Virus record (IMG/VR): IMGVR_UViG_3300025626_000018
Coordinates: 1 to 64,000 of that record
Source of the DNA: a virus
Direction: 5' to 3' (one strand)
DNA length: 64,000 nt
Shown: positions 2,024-53,889 of the stretch, piece after piece
How positions within the stretch are numbered: the first letter of the stretch is position 1
How the letters are laid out: every line of letters begins with the position of its first letter
Position numbers and translations under genes: made by a program
The notes under the pieces: generated by a model
The model's database searches: none
What the model saw: the letters and a program-made list of their open reading frames with translations, nothing else
Told to the model about the DNA's origin: nothing

Positions 2024-2393
2024 TTCTGATAATGTAAATAATGATTTTGAATATTCCAGAAAAACATATTATGACCTAATTGAAAAGGGTAATAATGCAC
2101 TTGAAGAAATGATGGAAGTTGCAAAAGCATTAGAGCATCCTCGCGCCTTTGAGGTTGTTTCTGGGATGATAAAAAATATTTCTGATGTAAATGATCGATT
2201 AATGGATTTACATAAAAAGAAAAAAGAATATAATTCAAAAGGCAATCAAAAATCCATTGAGGGCGGAACTACTAATAATAATTTATTTTTAGGTTCTACT
2301 ACAGATTTACAGCGAATGTTGCATGATGCTGCAAAAGCTAATGATATTATTGATATGGTGAAAGTTGATAGCAATGAATCAACAACTAAATGA
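2016..2393 (+). CDS. gp16: Terminase small subunit gp16
   Basis: A 125-residue, mostly helical protein located immediately before the terminase large subunit. The central segment RAFEVVSGMIKNISDVNDRLMD and a C-terminal tail rich in charged residues match gp16 of marine T4-like phages. gp16 forms a ring that recognises concatemeric DNA and stimulates the gp17 motor. Its 3' end overlaps the first codons of the large-subunit gene by about 20 bp, so the two subunits are likely made together. Confidence 0.85.
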   Translation: MNDSDNVNNDFEYSRKTYYDLIEKGNNALEEMMEVAKALEHPRAFEVVSGMIKNISDVNDRLMDLHKKKKEYNSKGNQKSIEGGTTNNNLFLGSTTDLQRMLHDAAKANDIIDMVKVDSNESTTK

Positions 2394-3366
2394 TTCTTAT
2401 AATGGTAATCAAAATGTAAAACGTGATGGTGTTACTCAGCAATTTACAAAAGAAGAAATTACTGAATATGCTAAATGTATGTATGATCCGGTTTACTTTG
2501 CAAAAACTTATTGCAAAGTAATTCATTTAGATCGTGGTTTAGTTAACTTTGAGCTATATCCATATCAAGAAAAAATGTTTAATCATTTTAATGATAATCG
2601 CTTTTCTATTGTTTTAGCGTGTCGCCAATCAGGCAAATCTATTTCTTCTGTAGCATATATTCTTTGGTTTGCTATTTTTCATAGTGAAAAAACTATTGCA
2701 GTAATGGCTAATAAGGGCGCAACGGCACGCGAAATGCTTGGTCGTATTACTCTTATGCTAGAAAATTTACCATTCTTTTTGCAGCCTGGTTGTAAAGCAT
2801 TAAATAAAGGAAGTATAGAATTTTCTAATAACTCTCGGGTTATTGCTGCGGCAACAAGTGGATCATCTATTCGTGGTATGTCAGTTTCATTATTGTATTT
2901 AGACGAGTTTGCTTTTGTTGAAAGAGCTAGTGAATTTTATACATCTACATATCCAGTGGTTTCATCAGGTAAAGATACAAAAGTTATTATTACATCAACT
3001 GCTAATGGTATTGGCAATGTTTTCCATAAAATATGGGAAGGCGCAGTACAAGAAACTAATAATTATAAACCGTTTAGAGTTGACTGGTGGGATGTACCTG
3101 GACGAGATAAAGAATGGAAAAAACAAACAGTTGCAAATACATCTAAATTGCAATTTGACCAAGAATTTGGTAATTGCCTTAAAAGTTCTTCCCAAATTAC
3201 TATTTGTATAAATAACTATATAGCAGAAATAACTATAGGAAATTTATATGAGTGTATCCAACGAGGATCAACATCTGGTTTATCTGTTGACGAGGAAATC
3301 AGACTCGCAGCAATACGTTGGTATAACGATAGACAGACGTATGAAGCAGAGAATGGGAGACCATAA
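2374..3366 (+). CDS. gp17: Terminase large subunit gp17, N-terminal half (ATPase) fused to a split-intein N fragment
   Basis: Residues 1-267 are the packaging ATPase domain. A Walker A motif CRQSGKS is at about 83-89, Walker B LLYLDEF at about 173-179, and a coupling motif STANG follows. At codon 3175 the sequence turns from terminase (QEFGN) into CLKSSSQITI..., a Cys-started intein N fragment; the nuclease domain is absent here. ATG 2374 is preferred to the TTG at 2365. The last ~37 residues overlap the endonuclease gene that starts at 3248 and probably have no function. The partner half is encoded at 3913-5037; protein trans-splicing would give a 532-residue terminase. Confidence 0.93.
   Translation: MNQQLNDSYNGNQNVKRDGVTQQFTKEEITEYAKCMYDPVYFAKTYCKVIHLDRGLVNFELYPYQEKMFNHFNDNRFSIVLACRQSGKSISSVAYILWFAIFHSEKTIAVMANKGATAREMLGRITLMLENLPFFLQPGCKALNKGSIEFSNNSRVIAAATSGSSIRGMSVSLLYLDEFAFVERASEFYTSTYPVVSSGKDTKVIITSTANGIGNVFHKIWEGAVQETNNYKPFRVDWWDVPGRDKEWKKQTVANTSKLQFDQEFGNCLKSSSQITICINNYIAEITIGNLYECIQRGSTSGLSVDEEIRLAAIRWYNDRQTYEAENGRP
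3175..3258 (+). other. Split-intein N fragment (IntN) in gp17
   Basis: The fragment starts with the catalytic Cys1 directly after the extein residue Asn267 and runs about 28 residues (CLKSSSQITI ... GNLYECI). This very short N part is the hallmark of atypical split inteins such as the metagenomic AceL-TerL intein, whose N fragment I recall as 25 residues with the same C...I.I.DLY layout. The exact C-terminal border is uncertain because no conserved motif marks it and the reading frame continues into the endonuclease gene. Confidence 0.85.
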
Positions 3367-3958
3367 AAGATCAAAAAGATTTCGCGAAGATGAATTTACT
3401 GTAGAAATACTAGAAAAAAGTAGTGATAGAAATTACATTAATGAACGTGAAGAATATTGGATTCGTAAATTAGACACGTTTAATAATGGTTTAAATGAAT
3501 CTTGGTCTGGAAAAGGACATGGGCACAATTCTCCTAATTTTACTACTGAAGGATATTTGTACTCAGAAGAATCGCGGAAAAAAATGAGTGAGTCTGCTAA
3601 AAAAAGAGGCGGGGGCTCAGAACAAATGAGACAGTTGTCTTTGAATCAATGGAAGGATCCAAAAATAAGACAACACCATTCAGAAATTAGAAAAGGTAAA
3701 AGGTTGAAACCACCGAAAATTTCTGATAAAAAAGTAATTGAAATTAGAACTCATTATGAAAAAGAAAAATTAAATTGTGAAAAAGAAATTAAAGAATACA
3801 ATGAAAATGCAAAGAAAAAAGGATGGCTTCAAAAAACTCCATCATCACATTTTGCAAGAAAATATGCAGAACACTATAAATGCTCAAATGTCACATTAAA
3901 GGGTATTATTGAATGGAAAACACGAACACACGTTCTCCCATCAATATACAAATCTTAA
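3248..3958 (+). CDS. GIY-YIG homing endonuclease between the two terminase halves
   Basis: A 236-residue free-standing endonuclease. The GIY-YIG core is present as VYLLT followed by QYVGIT (residues ~11-27), then a conserved Arg in DRRMKQRMGDHK and a catalytic Glu in EREEYWIRKLDTFNNG. A NUMOD3-like segment (YSEESRKKMSESAKK) and a basic, possibly DNA-binding C-terminus follow. It has its own ribosome site (TAGGAAA before ATG 3248), overlaps the upstream half-gene by 119 bp and the downstream half-gene by 46 bp. The likely role is to cut intein-less terminase alleles of competing phages and spread the split-intein cassette. Confidence 0.9.
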   Translation: MSVSNEDQHLVYLLTRKSDSQQYVGITIDRRMKQRMGDHKRSKRFREDEFTVEILEKSSDRNYINEREEYWIRKLDTFNNGLNESWSGKGHGHNSPNFTTEGYLYSEESRKKMSESAKKRGGGSEQMRQLSLNQWKDPKIRQHHSEIRKGKRLKPPKISDKKVIEIRTHYEKEKLNCEKEIKEYNENAKKKGWLQKTPSSHFARKYAEHYKCSNVTLKGIIEWKTRTHVLPSIYKS

Positions 3959-4239
3959 CACCATCCGGTTTTCAATCGTTTGATGGAGTAAAAAGATATT
4001 GGCATGAAAAATATTTAAAATTTATTTTTGAAGACAATACAGCTGTTGAATGCGCGGTTGATCACAGATTCATTATTAATGATAAAGAAGTCTATGCCCG
4101 GGATGTGCTCATAGGCGATAACATAGGTAAGATTGTATCGCGTATCAGTAAAATAAACGAAGGTGACTATTTTTATGATCCGGTAAATGTAGGTAATGGA
4201 AGTGTGTATAATCATGACCAAGGGTTTGTATCACATAAC
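3913..4239 (+). other. Split-intein C fragment (IntC) in gp17
   Basis: The 109-residue fragment starts MENTNTRSPINIQILTPSGF, contains the block-B-like AVDHRFI with its His, the segment VYARDVLIGD, and ends YDPVNV...GFVSHN, the intein C-terminal His-Asn. Its layout closely follows the C fragment of the AceL-TerL intein as I remember it. No endonuclease domain is embedded; that function is in the separate neighbouring gene. Confidence 0.88.
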
Positions 4240-5037
4240 ACTTTTTTTGGAACGGGCGATACTTTAATTGGTGCCGAAGTTTTGTTATCTCTTAGAAGAA
4301 AAGATCCAATAAACGTTACTCGGGATAATGTTTATGTATATGAGGAATCTAAAAAAGATCACCAATATATAATGACAGTAGATGTTGCGAAAGGTAGGGG
4401 TCAAGACTATAGTACATTTACTATAATTGATGTTAGTGTAAATCCATTTAAACAGGTAGCTACATATAGAGATAATCATATTTCTCCATTATTATATCCA
4501 AATATTATTTATAAATATGCTATGTCATATAATGAAGCAATGGTTGTTATAGAATCTAATGATGCTGGGCAAGTTGTATGTAATGGTTTATATCATGATT
4601 TAGAATATGAAAATATGTTTGTTGAATCGGCAGTAAAGTCTGGTTCACTTGGTATGTTAATGACACGCAAAGTTAAAAGAATTGGTTGTTCTTCATTTAA
4701 AGATTTAATGGAAAATAATAAATTAGATATTATGGATGAAAATACCATATTAGAAATTTCTACATTTACGGCGCGGGGGCAATCATATGAAGCATCTGAT
4801 GGAAATCACGATGATTTAGTAATGAATTTAATATTATTTTCTTATTTTGTTGGAACATCATTTTTTAATGAATTAACTGATATTAGTATTAAAGATTTGA
4901 TGTTTGAACAACGAATGAAAGAAATAGACGATGATATTGTCCCATTCGGTTTTTACGATGATGGGCAATCTACAGTAATTGATGATACTACATTTCATTC
5001 TAGTTGGGCTATAGAAGAACACCAGAATGATTGGTAA
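3913..5037 (+). CDS. gp17: Terminase large subunit gp17, C-terminal half (nuclease) led by a split-intein C fragment
   Basis: Residues 1-109 are an intein C fragment ending in the conserved FVSHN, followed by extein residue Thr (the +1 nucleophile) and FFGTGDTLI, which continues the terminase exactly where the upstream half stops. The nuclease domain carries the T4-type acidic residues: DVAKGRGQDYS (Asp401 of T4), VIESNDAG (Glu458) and DGNHDDLV (Asp542). A good ribosome site (AAAGGG) lies 9 nt before ATG 3913. The C extein is 265 residues. After trans-splicing the protein should be a complete head-packaging motor. Confidence 0.93.
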   Translation: MENTNTRSPINIQILTPSGFQSFDGVKRYWHEKYLKFIFEDNTAVECAVDHRFIINDKEVYARDVLIGDNIGKIVSRISKINEGDYFYDPVNVGNGSVYNHDQGFVSHNTFFGTGDTLIGAEVLLSLRRKDPINVTRDNVYVYEESKKDHQYIMTVDVAKGRGQDYSTFTIIDVSVNPFKQVATYRDNHISPLLYPNIIYKYAMSYNEAMVVIESNDAGQVVCNGLYHDLEYENMFVESAVKSGSLGMLMTRKVKRIGCSSFKDLMENNKLDIMDENTILEISTFTARGQSYEASDGNHDDLVMNLILFSYFVGTSFFNELTDISIKDLMFEQRMKEIDDDIVPFGFYDDGQSTVIDDTTFHSSWAIEEHQNDW

Positions 5038-26184: not shown

Positions 26185-26673
26185 ATGACAGGCGTTCAAA
26201 ATTTATTCCCCCGTGGCTCATTTATTGGTTTTGACCATTTATTTAATGAGCTTGATCATGTTGCTAAACATGCTAATGATCATTATCCACCCCACAACAT
26301 AATCAAAACTGATGAAGATAATTATCTAATCGAATTGGCTGTTGCGGGGTTTTCAAAAGATGAACTGTCAATTGAGGTCAAAGACCGAACATTAACAGTA
26401 ATGGGGGATCACATTTCAAAGGGTCGTGAGTTTATTCACCGTGGTATTTCTACGAAGAAATTTAAACGCACCTTTAGGCTGTCTGAGCACGTTTACGTGC
26501 ATGGAGCAGATATTCAAGATGGCATTCTAGCAGTTGAACTGAAATATGTTGTCCCAGAAAATCAGCGTCCTCGTATAATTTCAATTGGAAAAAACGAGGG
26601 TCAAAATGACACACACAATAACCAACTACTTACCGAAACTGACGGTAATCACCCCAGTCGTACAACTCTTTAG
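26185..26673 (+). CDS. Small heat shock protein Hsp20/IbpA
   Basis: A 162-residue chaperone with an alpha-crystallin domain: PPHNIIKTDEDNYLIELAVAGF, KDELSIEVKDRTLTVMG and the final strand pair ending ILAVELKYVVPE. It holds unfolding proteins until refolding. Hsp20 is common in marine T4-like phages. The C-terminal ~30 residues are poorly conserved and overlap the start of the DUF1127 gene. Confidence 0.92.
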   Translation: MTGVQNLFPRGSFIGFDHLFNELDHVAKHANDHYPPHNIIKTDEDNYLIELAVAGFSKDELSIEVKDRTLTVMGDHISKGREFIHRGISTKKFKRTFRLSEHVYVHGADIQDGILAVELKYVVPENQRPRIISIGKNEGQNDTHNNQLLTETDGNHPSRTTL

Positions 26674-26866
26674 CGTTGTTAGCAATTACTTAACTAAGCT
26701 TCACGCTTCGTACCGTATGGCAAGAGATGTTGCTAAAACTATTCAGGAGTTGAATAAACTTTCAAACGCTGAATTATCTGACATTGGTATTAGTCGTGGT
26801 GATATTTATACCATAGCTAATCAAAATGTTAGTGATTACCATGGCAAAATTCGTGGGAGAGTGTAA
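26606..26866 (+). CDS. DUF1127 family small protein
   Basis: An 86-residue protein starting at ATG 26606 (GAGGG ribosome site; the upstream TTG frame start is not needed). The C-terminal part reads YRMARDVAKTIQELNKLSNAEL followed by SDIGISRGDI, the signature of DUF1127, a family abundant in alphaproteobacteria. There, DUF1127 proteins have been tied to RNA turnover and stress control. The gene overlaps the hsp20 3' end by 68 bp. Confidence 0.85.
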   Translation: MTHTITNYLPKLTVITPVVQLFSVVSNYLTKLHASYRMARDVAKTIQELNKLSNAELSDIGISRGDIYTIANQNVSDYHGKIRGRV

Positions 26867-26867
26867 C

Positions 26868-27041
26868 ATGGTTGCTATTACATATAACTATATTGCCAGT
26901 CCCTTTGCCGGTCTTGGTAAGAATATTATGAATAAACTGGAAATGATTGGCTATGCTAGAGCAGCAGCTCATTTGGCTAATCATGGTTTTCATGAAGAAG
27001 CTAAAAAGTGTATGATGGAATACGCCAAGCTTCAAAAGTAA
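26868..27041 (+). CDS. Small DUF1127-like partner protein
   Basis: A 57-residue protein from ATG 26868 (GGGAGAG ribosome site) one base after the DUF1127 stop. The segment IMNKLEMIGYARAAAHLANHGFHEEAKKCM resembles the helix-turn-helix pair of small alphaproteobacterial DUF1127-type proteins, but lacks the final GISRGDI motif. It completes the hsp20 unit before a terminator. Possibly it works with the preceding protein on host RNA or regulators. Confidence 0.6.
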   Translation: MVAITYNYIASPFAGLGKNIMNKLEMIGYARAAAHLANHGFHEEAKKCMMEYAKLQK

Positions 27042-27064
27042 GGGTCACTACTTAATAAGTGCGC

Positions 27065-27086
27065 GGGAGGCCACGGTTAGCCTCCC
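27065..27086 (+). terminator. Hairpin terminator after the hsp20 unit
   Basis: Stem GGGAGGC / GCCTCCC with an 8-nt loop, followed by AATTTATTTTA, a weak T-rich tail. Confidence 0.75.
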
Positions 27087-27135
27087 AATTTATTTTACAG
27101 AATATTAAATACTAAGCATTGAGAGGAAATATAAT

Positions 27136-27501
27136 ATGACTAAAAACTTAGTAGCATTTATTGCTTTTTTTATCGTAACAGGTTCCGCAGCGCATGCTGA
27201 TAAAGCATTTAGAAAATGTGCATCTTGTCATAGTATTGAAGAAGGCGCAAAAAACGGCGCTGGACCAAACCTATGGAATGTTATGAATCGTGGCGTAGCA
27301 ACAAATGAAGATTATCGTTATAGTAAAAAACTATTAGCATGGGCAGAAGAAAACCCCCAATGGACTCCTGAGCTTATAGATAAGTGGCTAACCAATTCTA
27401 AAAAACTGGTTAAAGGTACTAAGATGAATTTCAAAGAAAAGAAAGAATCTGGGCGCCAAGTTATTATTGAATATCTACAATCAATGGGAGTAAAACAATG
27501 A
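27136..27501 (+). CDS. Secreted class I c-type cytochrome (c2-like)
   Basis: A 121-residue protein with an N-terminal signal peptide (hydrophobic to AHA, cleavage near residue 21). The heme-binding CASCH is at residues 28-32, GAGPNLWNV and a YSKKL helix follow as in bacterial cytochrome c2, and the axial Met is in GTKMNF (residue 97). Everything needed for covalent heme attachment and periplasmic electron transfer is present. It would rely on host cytochrome maturation. A good AGAGGAAA ribosome site is present; the stop overlaps the next gene by ATGA. Confidence 0.92.
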   Translation: MTKNLVAFIAFFIVTGSAAHADKAFRKCASCHSIEEGAKNGAGPNLWNVMNRGVATNEDYRYSKKLLAWAEENPQWTPELIDKWLTNSKKLVKGTKMNFKEKKESGRQVIIEYLQSMGVKQ

Positions 27502-27710
27502 CAACACTAAGATTGCAAATGATTAATGCAGCATATGATCATGCTAAAGCACATGTTGAAAAACATAAAATGAATATTGAAATCTATTTAACAAATCCAG
27601 TTGGAGTTGGCGAACACTCTGATGTTATGGACGCAATTGAAAAAGAACTTGAGGAGATGGCAAAATATGAAGATCATATGGAAATTCTTAACAAGTACTT
27701 CCCGAAATAA
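27498..27710 (+). CDS. Small conserved marine phage protein
   Basis: A 70-residue protein coupled to the cytochrome gene by a 4-bp overlap. The text MTTLRLQMINAAYDHAKAHVEKH followed by TNPVGVGEHSDVMDAIEKEL occurs, to my memory, in many marine T4-like phages with unknown function. Helical, no signal or membrane segment. Confidence 0.7.
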   Translation: MTTLRLQMINAAYDHAKAHVEKHKMNIEIYLTNPVGVGEHSDVMDAIEKELEEMAKYEDHMEILNKYFPK

Positions 27711-28114: not shown

Positions 28115-30640
28115 TTGAAACCATTTTATACATCAGTTTTTAAACACGGTAATCAAATTCTATATAGAGGAGTTAATCAAAGCGGTGCTCGGATTGAGAC
28201 TAAGCATAAATTTAAACCTACTCTTTATATAAGAAGCACTAAACCAGAGGATGAACTTCGTTCTTTGGACGGCGTGCGTGTTGCGCCTATTACATTTGAT
28301 AATATGAATGACGCATATCAATTTGTTGCTCAATATAAAGATGTAGATAACTTTAGTGTATATGGAAATACTAATTACGCTCAACAATTTATTACCGAAA
28401 AATTTCCGGATGATATTACATTTGATAGAAACCTCGTTAACATTTCCAATTTTGATATTGAAGTTGCTTCGGACGATGGCTTTCCAGAACCGGATGTTGC
28501 AGAACATCCAATTATTTCTATTGCATTAAAATCTAATCAAAGTAATGTTTATCATGCTTGGGGTCTTGGTGATTGGAATGTAGAAAATAGTGAACATAAA
28601 GATAAAATTATCCAGTATCGCAAGTGTAATTCTGAAATTGAATTGCTTGCTCAGTTTATGGAATACTGGAGAAATAACACGCCAGATATTATTACTGGCT
28701 GGTATATCCGTATGTTTGATATTCCATATATTTACAACCGCATTACACGCATTGCCGGCGAGGCTGTTGCTAAAAAACTTTCTCCGTGGGGAGTGGTTGG
28801 TAAGCGGCAAATTAATATCCGCGGTAAATTAACAACTTCATTTGATATTGCGGGTGTACAACAACTCGACTACATTGAACTATTTCAAAAATTTGGTTAT
28901 TCATATGGTCCGCAAGAATCTTATAAACTAGACCATATTGCTCATGTTGTATTGGGTGAACATAAAATTTCATATGAAGAATATGGAAATCTTCATGGCT
29001 TATACAAAGCAAATCATCAAAAATTTATTGATTATAATATTAAAGATGTTGAACTTGTTGACCGTATCGATGAAAAAATGGATCTTATTACTCTTGCTAT
29101 GACTATGGCATATAAGGGTGGTGTTAACTATTCTGATACATTTGGTACTACTGCTATATGGGATTCTATTATCTATCGCAAATTAGCAAAAGATAATATT
29201 ATTGTTCCTCCTAATAGAAATAGCCATAAGCTTCCATATCCAGGTGGATACGTAAAAGAGCCTATTCCGGGCATGTACGATTGGGTTGTTTCCTTTGATT
29301 TGAATTCGCTTTATCCAAATCTTATTGTGCAATATAATATGTCACCCGAAACTTTGATTAAAGATCCAATGCTACGAGGTCAAAGCGGGGTAGACTATTA
29401 TCTTCAAAGCGGTGAAATTCGAGATACCCAGCGTGAAGCCGATTTATCTGTTGCAGCAAATGGCAGTTGCTATAGTAAAAAATCACAGGGTGTTATTCCT
29501 AAAATTATTGTTGATTATTATAATGAGCGTTCTCAAGTTAAAAAAGAAATGCTTGCTACCCAATCTGAATATGAAAAGAATAAATCTGCTGATTTAGAAA
29601 AGAAAATCAACCAACTTGAAAATCGCCAAATGGCTATTAAAATTCTTTTAAACTCTCTTTATGGTGCACTAGGCAATCAATACTTTAGATATTTTGATAT
29701 GGATATTGCAGAAGGTATTACTTTATCTGGCCAACTTGCAATTCGTTCAGCTGAAAGAGCTGTTAATGATGCAATGAATAAAATTATGAAAACTGAAGAT
29801 GTTGATTATGTTATTGCTATTGATACAGACTCAGTATATATTCACTTTGGACCATTAGTTAATCGCTTTAAGCAAAAACTTAGCACTGAAGACACAGTAA
29901 AAGTTATTGATCAGATTTGTCGAGATCAATTTGAAAAATTCCTTGCAAAGTCGTATAATACTTTATTTGAAAAAATGAATGCTTATGATAATAGAATGCA
30001 AATGGGACGGGAAGCAATTGCTGATCGCGGCATTTGGACTGCGAAAAAACGGTATATTTTAAATGTTCACAATAATGAGGGTGTGCAATACTCTGTTCCT
30101 AAGCTTAAGATTATGGGCATTGAAGCTATTAAATCTTCAACACCCGAAGTTGTCCGCGATAAATTTAGAGAAATTTTCTATGTGCTTATTAATGGTTCTG
30201 AAGAAGAAACTCGTAAATATATTAGCGATTTTAAGAAAGTATTTAAATCCCTTCCACCCGAAAAAGTATCGTTTCCCAGATCTGTTTCTGACATTAAAAA
30301 ATGGCAAGATAAAACTACTTTATATAATAAAGGTACCCCTATTCATGTAAGAGGTAGCATTTTATATAATAACTGTATAAAAACTAATGATTTAAGTAAA
30401 AAGTTTGAATTGATTAAAAATGGAGAAAAGATTAAATTCACTTATCTTACTTTACCTAATCCTATTAAAGAAAACGTTATTGCATTTCCGGAATATTTGC
30501 CGGAAGAGCTTCATCTTCACAAATATGTGGATTATGATAAACAATTTGAAAAAACTTTTATTGAACCACTCACCCCAATTTTAGATGCAATTGGATGGAG
30601 TGTAGAAGAAAAAGCAACACTAGAGGATTTCTTTGGCTAA
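28115..30640 (+). CDS. gp43: DNA polymerase gp43 (family B)
   Basis: An 841-residue replicative polymerase. Exonuclease motif I is SNFDIEVAS, polymerase motif A is [10 protein letters not shown], motif B is [16 protein letters not shown], and motif C is [11 protein letters not shown]. It starts with TTG after a good TGGAGAAG site; the N-terminus [13 protein letters not shown] aligns with that of T4. Slightly shorter than T4 gp43 (898). No intein interrupts it. It overlaps the next gene by one base. Confidence 0.96.
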
Positions 30641-31377
30641 TGATTAATTATGTTTTTGATGTGGACGGTACGCTTACGCCAAGCCGTCAAAAAATGGATA
30701 AAGACTTTAAACCATTTTTCTTGAACTTTGTAAAAAATAATACAGTATATCTTATTACTGGATCCGATTATGCTAAAACATATGTGCAGCTCGGAGATAA
30801 AATATGTAATAGCGTAAGGGAAATTCATAATTGTTCTGGTAATTCAATTTGGAAAAAAGGAATAGAAATTGAAAGTTCGGATTGGGTTCTTCCAAAAGCT
30901 ATTCAAAACTGGCTAAATAATCAAGTTGTGGAAAATAAATTTTTTCATAAAACCGGGTTGCACATTGATCACCGGCCGGGCTTGGTTAATTTTAGTATTG
31001 TTGGAAGAAATTGTAATCTTGAACAAAGAGCCGCTTATGTAGAATGGGATTATCATACCGGTGATCGTTTGCAAATTGCTTCTGCCTTTAATGAACGGTT
31101 TGTTGGGGCAGGTGTAGTTGCCCAAATTGCTGGCGAAACCGGTCTGGATATTGCCCCTATTGGTTTTGATAAGCGTCAGTTAGCAGATCGGTTAAGTGGT
31201 CCCATTTATTTCTTCGGAGATAGTATGGATTGGGGTGGTAATGATTTCCCTCTTAAAGCCGCTATTAAGGATCGTCCGGGTTCAGAAGCATTTCATGTAA
31301 AAGACTGGCAAGATACCCAAAGGATTCTTTGGGCAATTGAAAATTCTGATGTACATCGGTTTGCGGGTGTGGTATAA
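30640..31377 (+). CDS. Phosphomannomutase-like HAD enzyme (eukaryotic PMM type)
   Basis: A 245-residue HAD-superfamily protein starting at ATG 30640 (TAATG overlap with gene 43). The nucleophile motif is FDVDGTLT (Asp7, Asp9). LVNFSIVGRNCN matches the substrate region NVSPIGRNCS of PMM2-type enzymes, and GFDKRQLADRL followed by YFFGDSMDWGGNDFPL is the C-terminal motif. It would convert mannose-6-phosphate to mannose-1-phosphate for GDP-mannose synthesis, or act on a related sugar phosphate. Confidence 0.82.
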   Translation: MINYVFDVDGTLTPSRQKMDKDFKPFFLNFVKNNTVYLITGSDYAKTYVQLGDKICNSVREIHNCSGNSIWKKGIEIESSDWVLPKAIQNWLNNQVVENKFFHKTGLHIDHRPGLVNFSIVGRNCNLEQRAAYVEWDYHTGDRLQIASAFNERFVGAGVVAQIAGETGLDIAPIGFDKRQLADRLSGPIYFFGDSMDWGGNDFPLKAAIKDRPGSEAFHVKDWQDTQRILWAIENSDVHRFAGVV

Positions 31378-52642: not shown

Positions 52643-52693
52643 ACATTATATTGTCACATAATTAACACATAATTGATTATTATAAAATTATAA

Positions 52694-52721
52694 GTTACAA
52701 CTTGCATTAAATTTTTATAAG
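52694..52721 (+). promoter_or_regulatory. Possible promoter of the tmRNA
   Basis: GTTACA, 16 nt, TATAAG, ending about 12 bp before the start of the acceptor-piece sequence. Weaker than the other promoters. Confidence 0.45.
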
Positions 52722-52790
52722 TATCTTTGTTAACGTTGAAGCGACGTGGACACATACTGGACTCGGGTGCGAATCCCGACAGCTCCACCA

Positions 52791-52880
52791 TAAGCACTTG
52801 ATAGGTGACGACCTATATTCGATGAAGTAGATAAGGATTTAGCTACCTGATGCTATGGAGAAGTTTCAAGTGTTTTTGAT
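52791..52880 (+). other. Intervening segment of the tmRNA precursor
   Basis: This 90-nt loop joins the acceptor CCA end to the coding-piece 5' end and is removed during maturation. It has its own fold: AGCACTTG pairs with CAAGTGTT, ATAGGT-GACG-ACCTAT is a perfect hairpin (52801-52816), and GTAG..CTAC forms a third. Confidence 0.75.
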
Positions 52881-52962
52881 GGGGCTGACATTTAGGATCG
52901 ACAGGTGTGAAAGTGGAAGTGGAGTTAACCGGATGATCGCGTATAGATCAAACACTATAACT

Positions 52963-53007
52963 GCAAATAATAACTTTGCACCATCTGGTTATGCACTAGC
53001 TGCATAA
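52963..53007 (+). other. tmRNA tag reading frame
   Basis: GCA to TAA encode the tag ANNNFAPSGYALAA. The ALAA end is the usual degradation signal recognised by ClpXP. No start codon is used; translation resumes at GCA. Confidence 0.9.
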
Positions 53008-53094
53008 ACACAGGGAGCTGGCCACTTGCTTAGCAACAGAAAAGTGGCATATTTAATATTTAAAATTTTTATAAAATCAGAAAGAATATACGAA

Positions 53095-53889
53095 ATGCGT
53101 AATTTACTTATCACATCTGCACTTGTAACAGGATTTGCTGGTGCAGCATATGCTGAAACTACAGTACTGCCATATGGCCCAACATTATCTGGTAAAGCTG
53201 TTTTAACATTTGCAGAAACCGCTGCAGATAAATGGGCCGCAACTCCAACATTCGATCTTGGTATTGATGTTGCTGGTATTTCAACTGTAAACCTTGACTT
53301 TTCTGCAACAGACGGAAATGGTGTTACTCTTGATAATTGGACAATTGGCACACAAGTAGCCGGTATCGATATTGCAATTGGCGATGACAATGGTGTAATG
53401 CCAGGTGCCGAAGGCGAGCAAACACTTACTGCTCCAGCAATGGCTGAATCTGTACAAGTAAATATGGGTGCAATTTCTGCGGCTATCGGATTTACTGATA
53501 TTGCTGCCGATATTACAGATATTAGCAATGTACAGGGCGCAATTGTACTCCCATCCGTAGCTGGAATTGAAATTACTGCCGCTGCTGATTATAACTTAAA
53601 TACTGAAAATACTGTATTTGGCGCCGGTGTTACTGGTGTTGATCTTGGTGTTGCCGCAGTTGGCGGTGCAGTATCTTATGATGTAGACACTACAGCAATA
53701 GGTTATGAGCTTGTAGCAAAGCAATCTGTAATTACAACATATATTAATGGTGACGACACTGATATGCTACAAAATATTGGTGGCGAATTTGTATATGGTA
53801 TTGCGGGCGCTGAGCTTACCACAGGCGCAAATTATAATTTAAATAGTGAAGATTTTTCTCCTTCAATTGAATTAAGCTTTGCATTCTAA
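53095..53889 (+). CDS. Outer-membrane beta-barrel (porin-like) protein
   Basis: A 264-residue secreted protein. ATG 53095 is chosen because a clean signal peptide follows (MRNLLITSALVTGFAGAAYA, cleaved before Glu21); the longer frame begins inside the tmRNA. The mature part is a chain of alternating Gly/aromatic beta strands and ends FSPSIELSFAF, with the C-terminal Phe required for outer-membrane insertion by BamA. The rest has a porin-like rather than an adhesin-like composition. It lies directly behind the tmRNA without a visible promoter. Confidence 0.82.
   Translation: MRNLLITSALVTGFAGAAYAETTVLPYGPTLSGKAVLTFAETAADKWAATPTFDLGIDVAGISTVNLDFSATDGNGVTLDNWTIGTQVAGIDIAIGDDNGVMPGAEGEQTLTAPAMAESVQVNMGAISAAIGFTDIAADITDISNVQGAIVLPSVAGIEITAAADYNLNTENTVFGAGVTGVDLGVAAVGGAVSYDVDTTAIGYELVAKQSVITTYINGDDTDMLQNIGGEFVYGIAGAELTTGANYNLNSEDFSPSIELSFAF

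Follow-up and report, generated by a model that had tools for sequence, protein, structure and literature searches.

Cyanophages carry plastocyanin (petE) together with PTOX, and the two are thought to adjust the electron flow of the host (PMC10452541). Other phage genes connected with electron transfer have been described: soxD with cytochrome c motifs is found in sulfur-oxidising phages, some of its viral copies being devoid of heme motifs (PMC8190135), and the viral 'cytochrome C oxidase' of the literature is a read-level report of cbb3 (PMC3474794). By its own statement, a further study saw no electron carriers in the phages that it covered (PMC8115048). That phages manipulate the energy metabolism of their hosts has ample documentation in the case of photosynthesis and hardly any in that of the respiration of heterotrophs. 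Electron-transfer auxiliary genes of phages are, as such, already known; what is novel in the locus described here is a predicted heme-based, probably respiratory carrier.

The locus maps to positions 27136..27501 (+) of a 64-kb stretch of DNA, hereafter the window, which belongs to a virus record of 72,943 bases. A first-pass annotation had described it as a phage gene for a secreted, c2-like c-type cytochrome with its key residues intact, and had remarked that electron-transfer cytochromes are not usually known from phages. The description is borne out by the data presented below, export having been judged by eye only, and the remark agrees with the absence of such proteins from INPHARED, PHROGs and BFVD. 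Specifically, tblastn with two different queries against 50,697 phage records retrieved no class I cytochrome c of this kind, PHROGs yielded none either, and the comparison of the cytochrome model with the viral protein structures of BFVD returned nothing better than E 3.7. In the open-access literature we found no paper on a phage class I cytochrome c, an absence that does not amount to proof.

A class I cytochrome c gene in a T4-like phage genome

The gene starts with an ATG at 27136, ends with a stop at 27501 and consists of an intact open reading frame of 121 amino acids. Its product matches PF00034 (Cytochrom_C) with 31.8 bits, against a curated cut-off of 21.3, and solved cytochromes c with an E value of 2.5e-19 (phmmer). 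The CASCH heme-attachment motif (C28, C31 and H32; 27217..27231, +) is followed by the axial Met97 within KGTKM (codon 27424..27426, +). The Cys, Cys and His residues of the former, as well as the Met of the latter, are invariant in the alignments, including one of 34 rows that contains bacterial-like members. In addition, the codon-position GC content of the gene (0.47/0.39/0.23) is within the range of the adjacent phage genes.

Residues 1-21 (27136..27198, +) resemble a signal peptide: MTKNLVAFIAFFIVTGSAAHA precedes D22, with AHA directly ahead of the putative cleavage point, and the N-terminus appears in the alignment, by eye, hydrophobic with an AxA-like end. Cleavage between AHA and D would leave about six residues before the first Cys and thus a short mature N-terminal helix, a trait also seen in the alignment for L010, L012 and L026 (here and below, L-numbered relatives are viral contigs from IMG/VR scans). 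The N-terminus of the phage protein may also stay uncleaved. Two narrower assignments were tried and rejected. The c-550 CycA equivalog (NCBIfam NF043008) scored 49 bits against a cut-off of 240, so far under it that the protein is placed among the class I cytochromes c outside that exact subfamily. The membrane-anchored cytochrome cy/CycM type, with an anchor and a linker in about 180 aa, does not fit a protein of 121 aa without a linker; the hydrophobic stretch stops about six residues ahead of C28, and small alphaproteobacterial genomes have frames of ~177-183 aa instead.

An AlphaFold model built on a 34-row alignment (mean pLDDT 87.2, pTM 0.80; a model on 14 close rows, with a pLDDT of 50.6, was discarded) resembles c552, c2 and mitochondrial cytochromes c (TM 0.82; up to 0.83 in Foldseek). 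The top structural match is the arsenite oxidase-bound c552 of 8ed4, which superimposes on the model with Z 14.9 and an rmsd of 2.2 over 103 residues and is 38% identical in sequence, and the nearest solved relatives are soluble electron shuttles, namely c2, c552 and mitochondrial c. In class I cytochromes c, the residues P30, R38, Y48, W59, T78, K79, M80 and F82 of the tuna protein mark heme-pocket positions; in the phmmer alignment, read by eye, they correspond to P44, R52, Y62, W76, T95, K96, M97 and F99 of the phage protein. Class I cytochromes c dock on bc1 and oxidase through a ring of lysines, and the tuna heme-edge lysines 72, 73, 79, 86 and 87 have their counterparts, again by eye, in phage K89, K90, K96, K102 and K103. 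In conclusion, as judged from family, motif and predicted fold, the product of 27136-27501 is a class I cytochrome c.

The gene sits in the genuine context of a marine T4-like phage. The replication block runs in the order gp47, gp46, gp45, gp44, gp62, regA, hsp20, cytochrome c and gp43, with the Hsp20 chaperone gene at 26185..26673 (+; PF00011 and phrog_432) and the family B DNA polymerase gp43 at 28115..30640 (+); of the phage records, C48C1 (OQ984149) has the most similar gp43, at 56%. Upstream lie T4-type head, neck and tail genes (portal phrog_213, major head phrog_138, sheath, tube and terminase). The terminase large subunit is split over window positions 2365-5037 (N-part 2365-3366, C-part 3913-5037), with a homing endonuclease-like open reading frame at 3248-3958 between the two parts, an arrangement reminiscent of an intron, an intein or the disruption of the gene by a homing endonuclease. 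Beside gp43, at 30595-31377, the window encodes a eukaryotic-type phosphomannomutase-like protein (PF03332, 78.5 bits), found also in L007 and L026.

A two-piece permuted tmRNA of the alphaproteobacterial type was detected at 52676..53098 (+) by ARAGORN and by two Rfam models, the permuted one (RF04321) giving 103 bits and the alphaproteobacterial one (RF01849) 72.3 bits. At the DNA level, it matches a few phages and some small alphaproteobacterial genomes, each time over a run of only about 20-50 bases. The type of this RNA points to an alphaproteobacterial host or to a recent host history of that kind; the case of phage Melnitz indicates that a two-piece tmRNA can survive a host switch, so that a host mismatch is possible (PMC9004378). 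At 53026-53889, the window encodes a protein resembling a secreted outer-membrane barrel, for which no Pfam or PHROG family was found; a homologue with 38% identity is encoded at L021:5712-6470, just 3' of a cytochrome c.

A recombining cassette and the scar of a DoxX deletion

The IMG/VR scans yielded cytochrome relatives that form 17 clusters at 90% identity, the window's own included; these counts depend on the scans, near-duplicates having been collapsed at 90% identity only, and leave out weak matches of at most 42% identity. L152-L167 (29-42% identity, on contigs mostly of 4-8 kb) were not counted, since bacterial contigs may have been misfiled among them; in the tree, L152 pairs with a bacterial sequence. 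The viral contigs of the set are mostly fragments: a T4-type major head protein is present on five of the ten cytochrome c contigs checked, and the other five may be fragments. Over 4.7 kb, the window shares 99.98% identity with L003, a contig of different metagenomic origin.

Comparison of these contigs revealed that cytochrome c is part of a recombining cassette comprising DUF1127, a ~60-aa protein, DoxX or alternative oxidase (AOX), and cytochrome c; this cassette and the deletion scar described below are new with respect to the first-pass annotation. In the window, the first cassette gene encodes a small DUF1127 protein (26585..26866, +; PF06568, 36.7 bits against a cut-off of 23.3; start uncertain) and is kept upstream of cytochrome c in relatives. 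The second encodes a helical protein of ~60-71 aa (26826..27041, +; likely true start ATG 26868), for which profile searches returned no family match. The pair lies upstream of cytochrome c in 8 of the 17 clusters, on differing backbones: the unit is near gp43 in the window, L007 and L026, and away from gp43 in L012 (300 kb), L017, L020 and L024. The slot between the pair and the cytochrome holds DoxX (PF07681) in L007, L017 and others, and AOX (PF01786, 272 and 260 bits) in L026 and L028; in L012, DoxX is placed after cytochrome c. AOX or DoxX is found within 2 kb of cytochrome c in ten of the 17 clusters, AOX itself in three (L026, L028 and L148), and any of six cassette partners in twelve, leaving five with none. 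Downstream, a phrog_1811 gene (27498..27710, +) overlaps the cytochrome c stop, and it adjoins cytochrome c in 4/17 clusters.

AOX, DoxX, the DUF1127 pair and a membrane protein of ~100-120 aa also occur, within the stretch examined, in phages without the cytochrome; the parts of the cassette are therefore exchangeable modules. AOX was confirmed at 124 viral loci, 80 of which were kept (L193-L272), and there it often adjoins the ~100-120-aa membrane protein or the DUF1127 pair. By eye, a ferredoxin/flavodoxin-NADP reductase-like gene was noted at L096:6516-7241, 1.1 kb 3' of a divergent phage cytochrome c, and at L086:1124-3838 a cytochrome c lies between ammonium transporter-like and Rieske-oxygenase-like genes, both again recognised by eye. 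The first cassette gene may be regulatory, as suggested by the PhoR binding of DUF1127 proteins and by the RNA activity of CcaF1, which we take to be a member of the same family. Specifically, the kinase PhoR is a binding partner of DUF1127 proteins in both Agrobacterium and E. coli (PMC12501420), while CcaF1 is an RNA-binding protein of Rhodobacter with RNA as its target (PMC10253847).

Neither DoxX nor AOX is present anywhere in the window's record, which may be a fragment. When the window was compared with L007 by blastn, two aligned blocks were obtained, window 27032-27099 with L007 4522-4588 (95.6%) and window 27116-27499 with L007 4981-5364 (91.9%); the DoxX gene of L007 falls between the two, corresponding in the window to a gap from ~27099 to ~27116. 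The GCATTGAGAGGAAATATAATATGA ahead of the cytochrome start is what remains of the 3' end of DoxX, some 20 bp in length. This relic, in the frame A-L-R-G-N (27116..27138, +), overlaps the start of cytochrome c and lies in what is now its ribosome-binding region, where the GAGAGG now acts as the ribosome-binding sequence of the cytochrome gene. Since several other clusters have DoxX at this position, we interpret the difference as a loss in the window lineage and not as a gain in L007. DoxX was cleanly lost and the cytochrome kept, which implies that the cytochrome is useful without DoxX.

A perfect GC-rich hairpin, GGGAGGC..GCCTCCC followed by AATTTATTTT (27065..27086, +), resembles a terminator or a processing element. 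L007 carries the same hairpin in the interval that separates the ~60-aa gene from DoxX, and the hairpin is therefore older than the DoxX deletion. The late-promoter motif TATAAATA occurs no more often than expected by chance and the enrichment of the motif TATTAAATAC is only marginal, so that we draw no claim on timing from the sequence.

When 14 phage sequences were placed in a tree together with 31 cytochromes c of alphaproteobacteria, they grouped in a single clade (100/98), and 22 do so when more divergent members are added (99/96). No bacterial sequence falls inside the phage clade in either tree. The nearest bacterial neighbours of the clade differ between the trees and are weakly supported, so the donor is not named by the tree; L031-L034, matches from a genome collection, were rejected as donor, their cytochrome domains lying at the C-terminus of a 340-aa protein. 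Nei-Gojobori dN/dS lies at 0.14-0.29 among the sequences closest to that of the window, and L017/L020 give 0.05; distant pairs were saturated and omitted. With a dN/dS of 0.05-0.29, and with CxxCH and Met intact in the relatives, the notion of a decayed copy in related genomes, raised in the first-pass annotation, is refuted. Because the phage sequences make up one clade, have kept their heme ligands and show a low dN/dS, a single, ancient acquisition is most likely, after which the gene was held under purifying selection. By its position, its recurrence in relatives and the signature of purifying selection, it can be classed as a probable phage auxiliary metabolic gene.

Proposed function and alternative readings

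The reading that we favour, with a probability of roughly 0.62, is that of a soluble periplasmic class I cytochrome c that would shuttle electrons from bc1 to oxidase and sustain respiration during infection, as part of a respiration cassette. The kept heme pocket and docking lysines suggest such a soluble shuttle as the simplest function, and the membrane-bound AOX or DoxX encoded next to it in related phages hints that the respiratory membrane is what is targeted. The protein would be exported to the periplasm and its heme attached covalently by the host Ccm system; CcmF was found in all 11 alphaproteobacterial genomes tested and was not found in the phage record. The cytochrome would then carry electrons from the host cytochrome bc1 complex to the host cytochrome c oxidase, allowing proton pumping and ATP supply, or the removal of excess reductant, to go on during the shutdown of host gene expression; until lysis, phages depend on ATP. 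The cassette would be traded among marine T4-like phages, its slot before or after the cytochrome being taken by the quinol-consuming AOX or by the DoxX membrane protein, and the small DUF1127 protein may tune host regulation. AOX and cytochrome c do not form one linear pathway, since AOX bypasses both bc1 and cytochrome c. The early proposal that the gene could keep respiration going is a plausible inference, and the AOX and DoxX neighbours in related phages lend it weight; for the other early proposal, the replacement of a host c2 undergoing degradation, no specific support emerged.

It is unlikely, in our view, that the cytochrome instead exchanges electrons with one particular redox enzyme, of phage or host, outside the bc1-oxidase chain, whether DoxX passes electrons to it or it serves a periplasmic dehydrogenase, a peroxidase or a detoxification step, in the way that c552 takes up electrons from arsenite oxidase. 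The location of DoxX directly upstream, overlapping the cytochrome start in L007, L014 and L017, would suit such a pairing, as would the arsenite oxidase-bound c552 found as top structural match; however, the window lineage retains an intact cytochrome without DoxX, AOX fills the same slot in L026 and L028 and is no user of cytochrome c, and no dedicated oxidoreductase partner is conserved across the clusters. Less probable still is a competitor or decoy, displacing the host carrier to throttle or redirect respiration or tying up heme or Ccm capacity, with electrons diverted to AOX or reductant spared for nucleotide synthesis. The co-occurrence of AOX in L026, L028 and L148 is in line with this idea, as is the redirection of electron flow ascribed to PTOX and plastocyanin in cyanophages (PMC10452541), yet AOX is limited to three of the 17 clusters, and the retention of heme pocket and docking lysines favours a working shuttle.

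Bacterial homologues are common in alphaproteobacteria, and the gene could on that account be a passenger, captured recently from a host or brought in by a chimeric assembly, and functionless in the phage. We consider this highly improbable, given the almost identical L003 from another metagenome, the grouping in one clade of divergent phage clusters that have preserved their heme ligands at a low dN/dS, and a codon-position base composition like that of the phage's own genes. Intact, selectively kept copies on many independent phage contigs contradict the passenger idea; a single-contig artefact or a recent host capture is ruled out by L003, the 17 clusters and the phage clade.

Several alphaproteobacteria with small genomes (1.2-1.4 Mb) have as their best homologue a protein of ~177-183 aa that is extended at the N-terminus and is probably anchored in the membrane; if the host has the anchored form only, the phage would add a mobile carrier that the host lacks, which we regard as a lead, not a result. 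More tentatively, and as something short of an even chance, marine T4-like phages of alphaproteobacteria may carry a modular cassette that steers respiratory electrons through a soluble shuttle and a bypass oxidase, its parts being a DUF1127 regulator, the ~60-aa partner, AOX or DoxX, cytochrome c and the membrane protein. That selection has maintained a cytochrome c in phages, with AOX or DoxX as its neighbours, indicates that T4-like marine viruses act on the respiratory chain. If true, a soluble shuttle would be supplied to a host with a membrane-tethered cytochrome c only, and the cassette would represent a heterotroph counterpart of the cyanophage photosynthesis genes, with a bearing on the oxygen consumption of infected cells in the ocean. 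The small cassette proteins are direct test objects for the control of respiration.

Comparison with described systems

The phage protein shares with the alphaproteobacterial and mitochondrial c2, c550 and c552 (PF00034) the fold, CxxCH, the Met of KGTKM, the heme pocket, the size and the export-like N-terminus. It differs from them in that the phage copies form a separate clade (99/96) and in the shortened N-terminal helix of the window's relatives; compared with tuna cytochrome c, it has an extra AEENPxW stretch ahead of the equivalent of Trp59.

Among phages, the pelagimyophage-like Melnitz and Mosig combine, as here, a T4 core with an alphaproteobacterial-type two-piece tmRNA (PMC9004378), whereas no cytochrome c was found in the phage records searched. 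Melnitz phages have a DUF1127 gene and a distant homologue of the ~60-aa protein (MZ577097.1, 31197-31624), with no AOX, DoxX or cytochrome c annotated nearby. Phage C48C1 (OQ984149) has the same gene order as the window, but neither cytochrome c nor DoxX was found in it; it carries an AOX at OQ984149.1 26258-26821, between gp45 and gp44, annotated as 'hypothetical protein'.

The soxD gene of phages encodes an enzyme subunit, in contrast to the free shuttle with intact heme sites proposed here. In its proposed function, the system resembles cyanophage petE and PTOX, which likewise pair a phage-encoded electron carrier with a quinol oxidase. The AOX of our phages matches the PTOX family (phrog_4235) only with an E value of 0.0065, and petE encodes a copper protein acting in a photosynthetic host, whereas the window combines a heme protein with an alphaproteobacterial-type tmRNA and, as we propose, a respiratory chain as its target.
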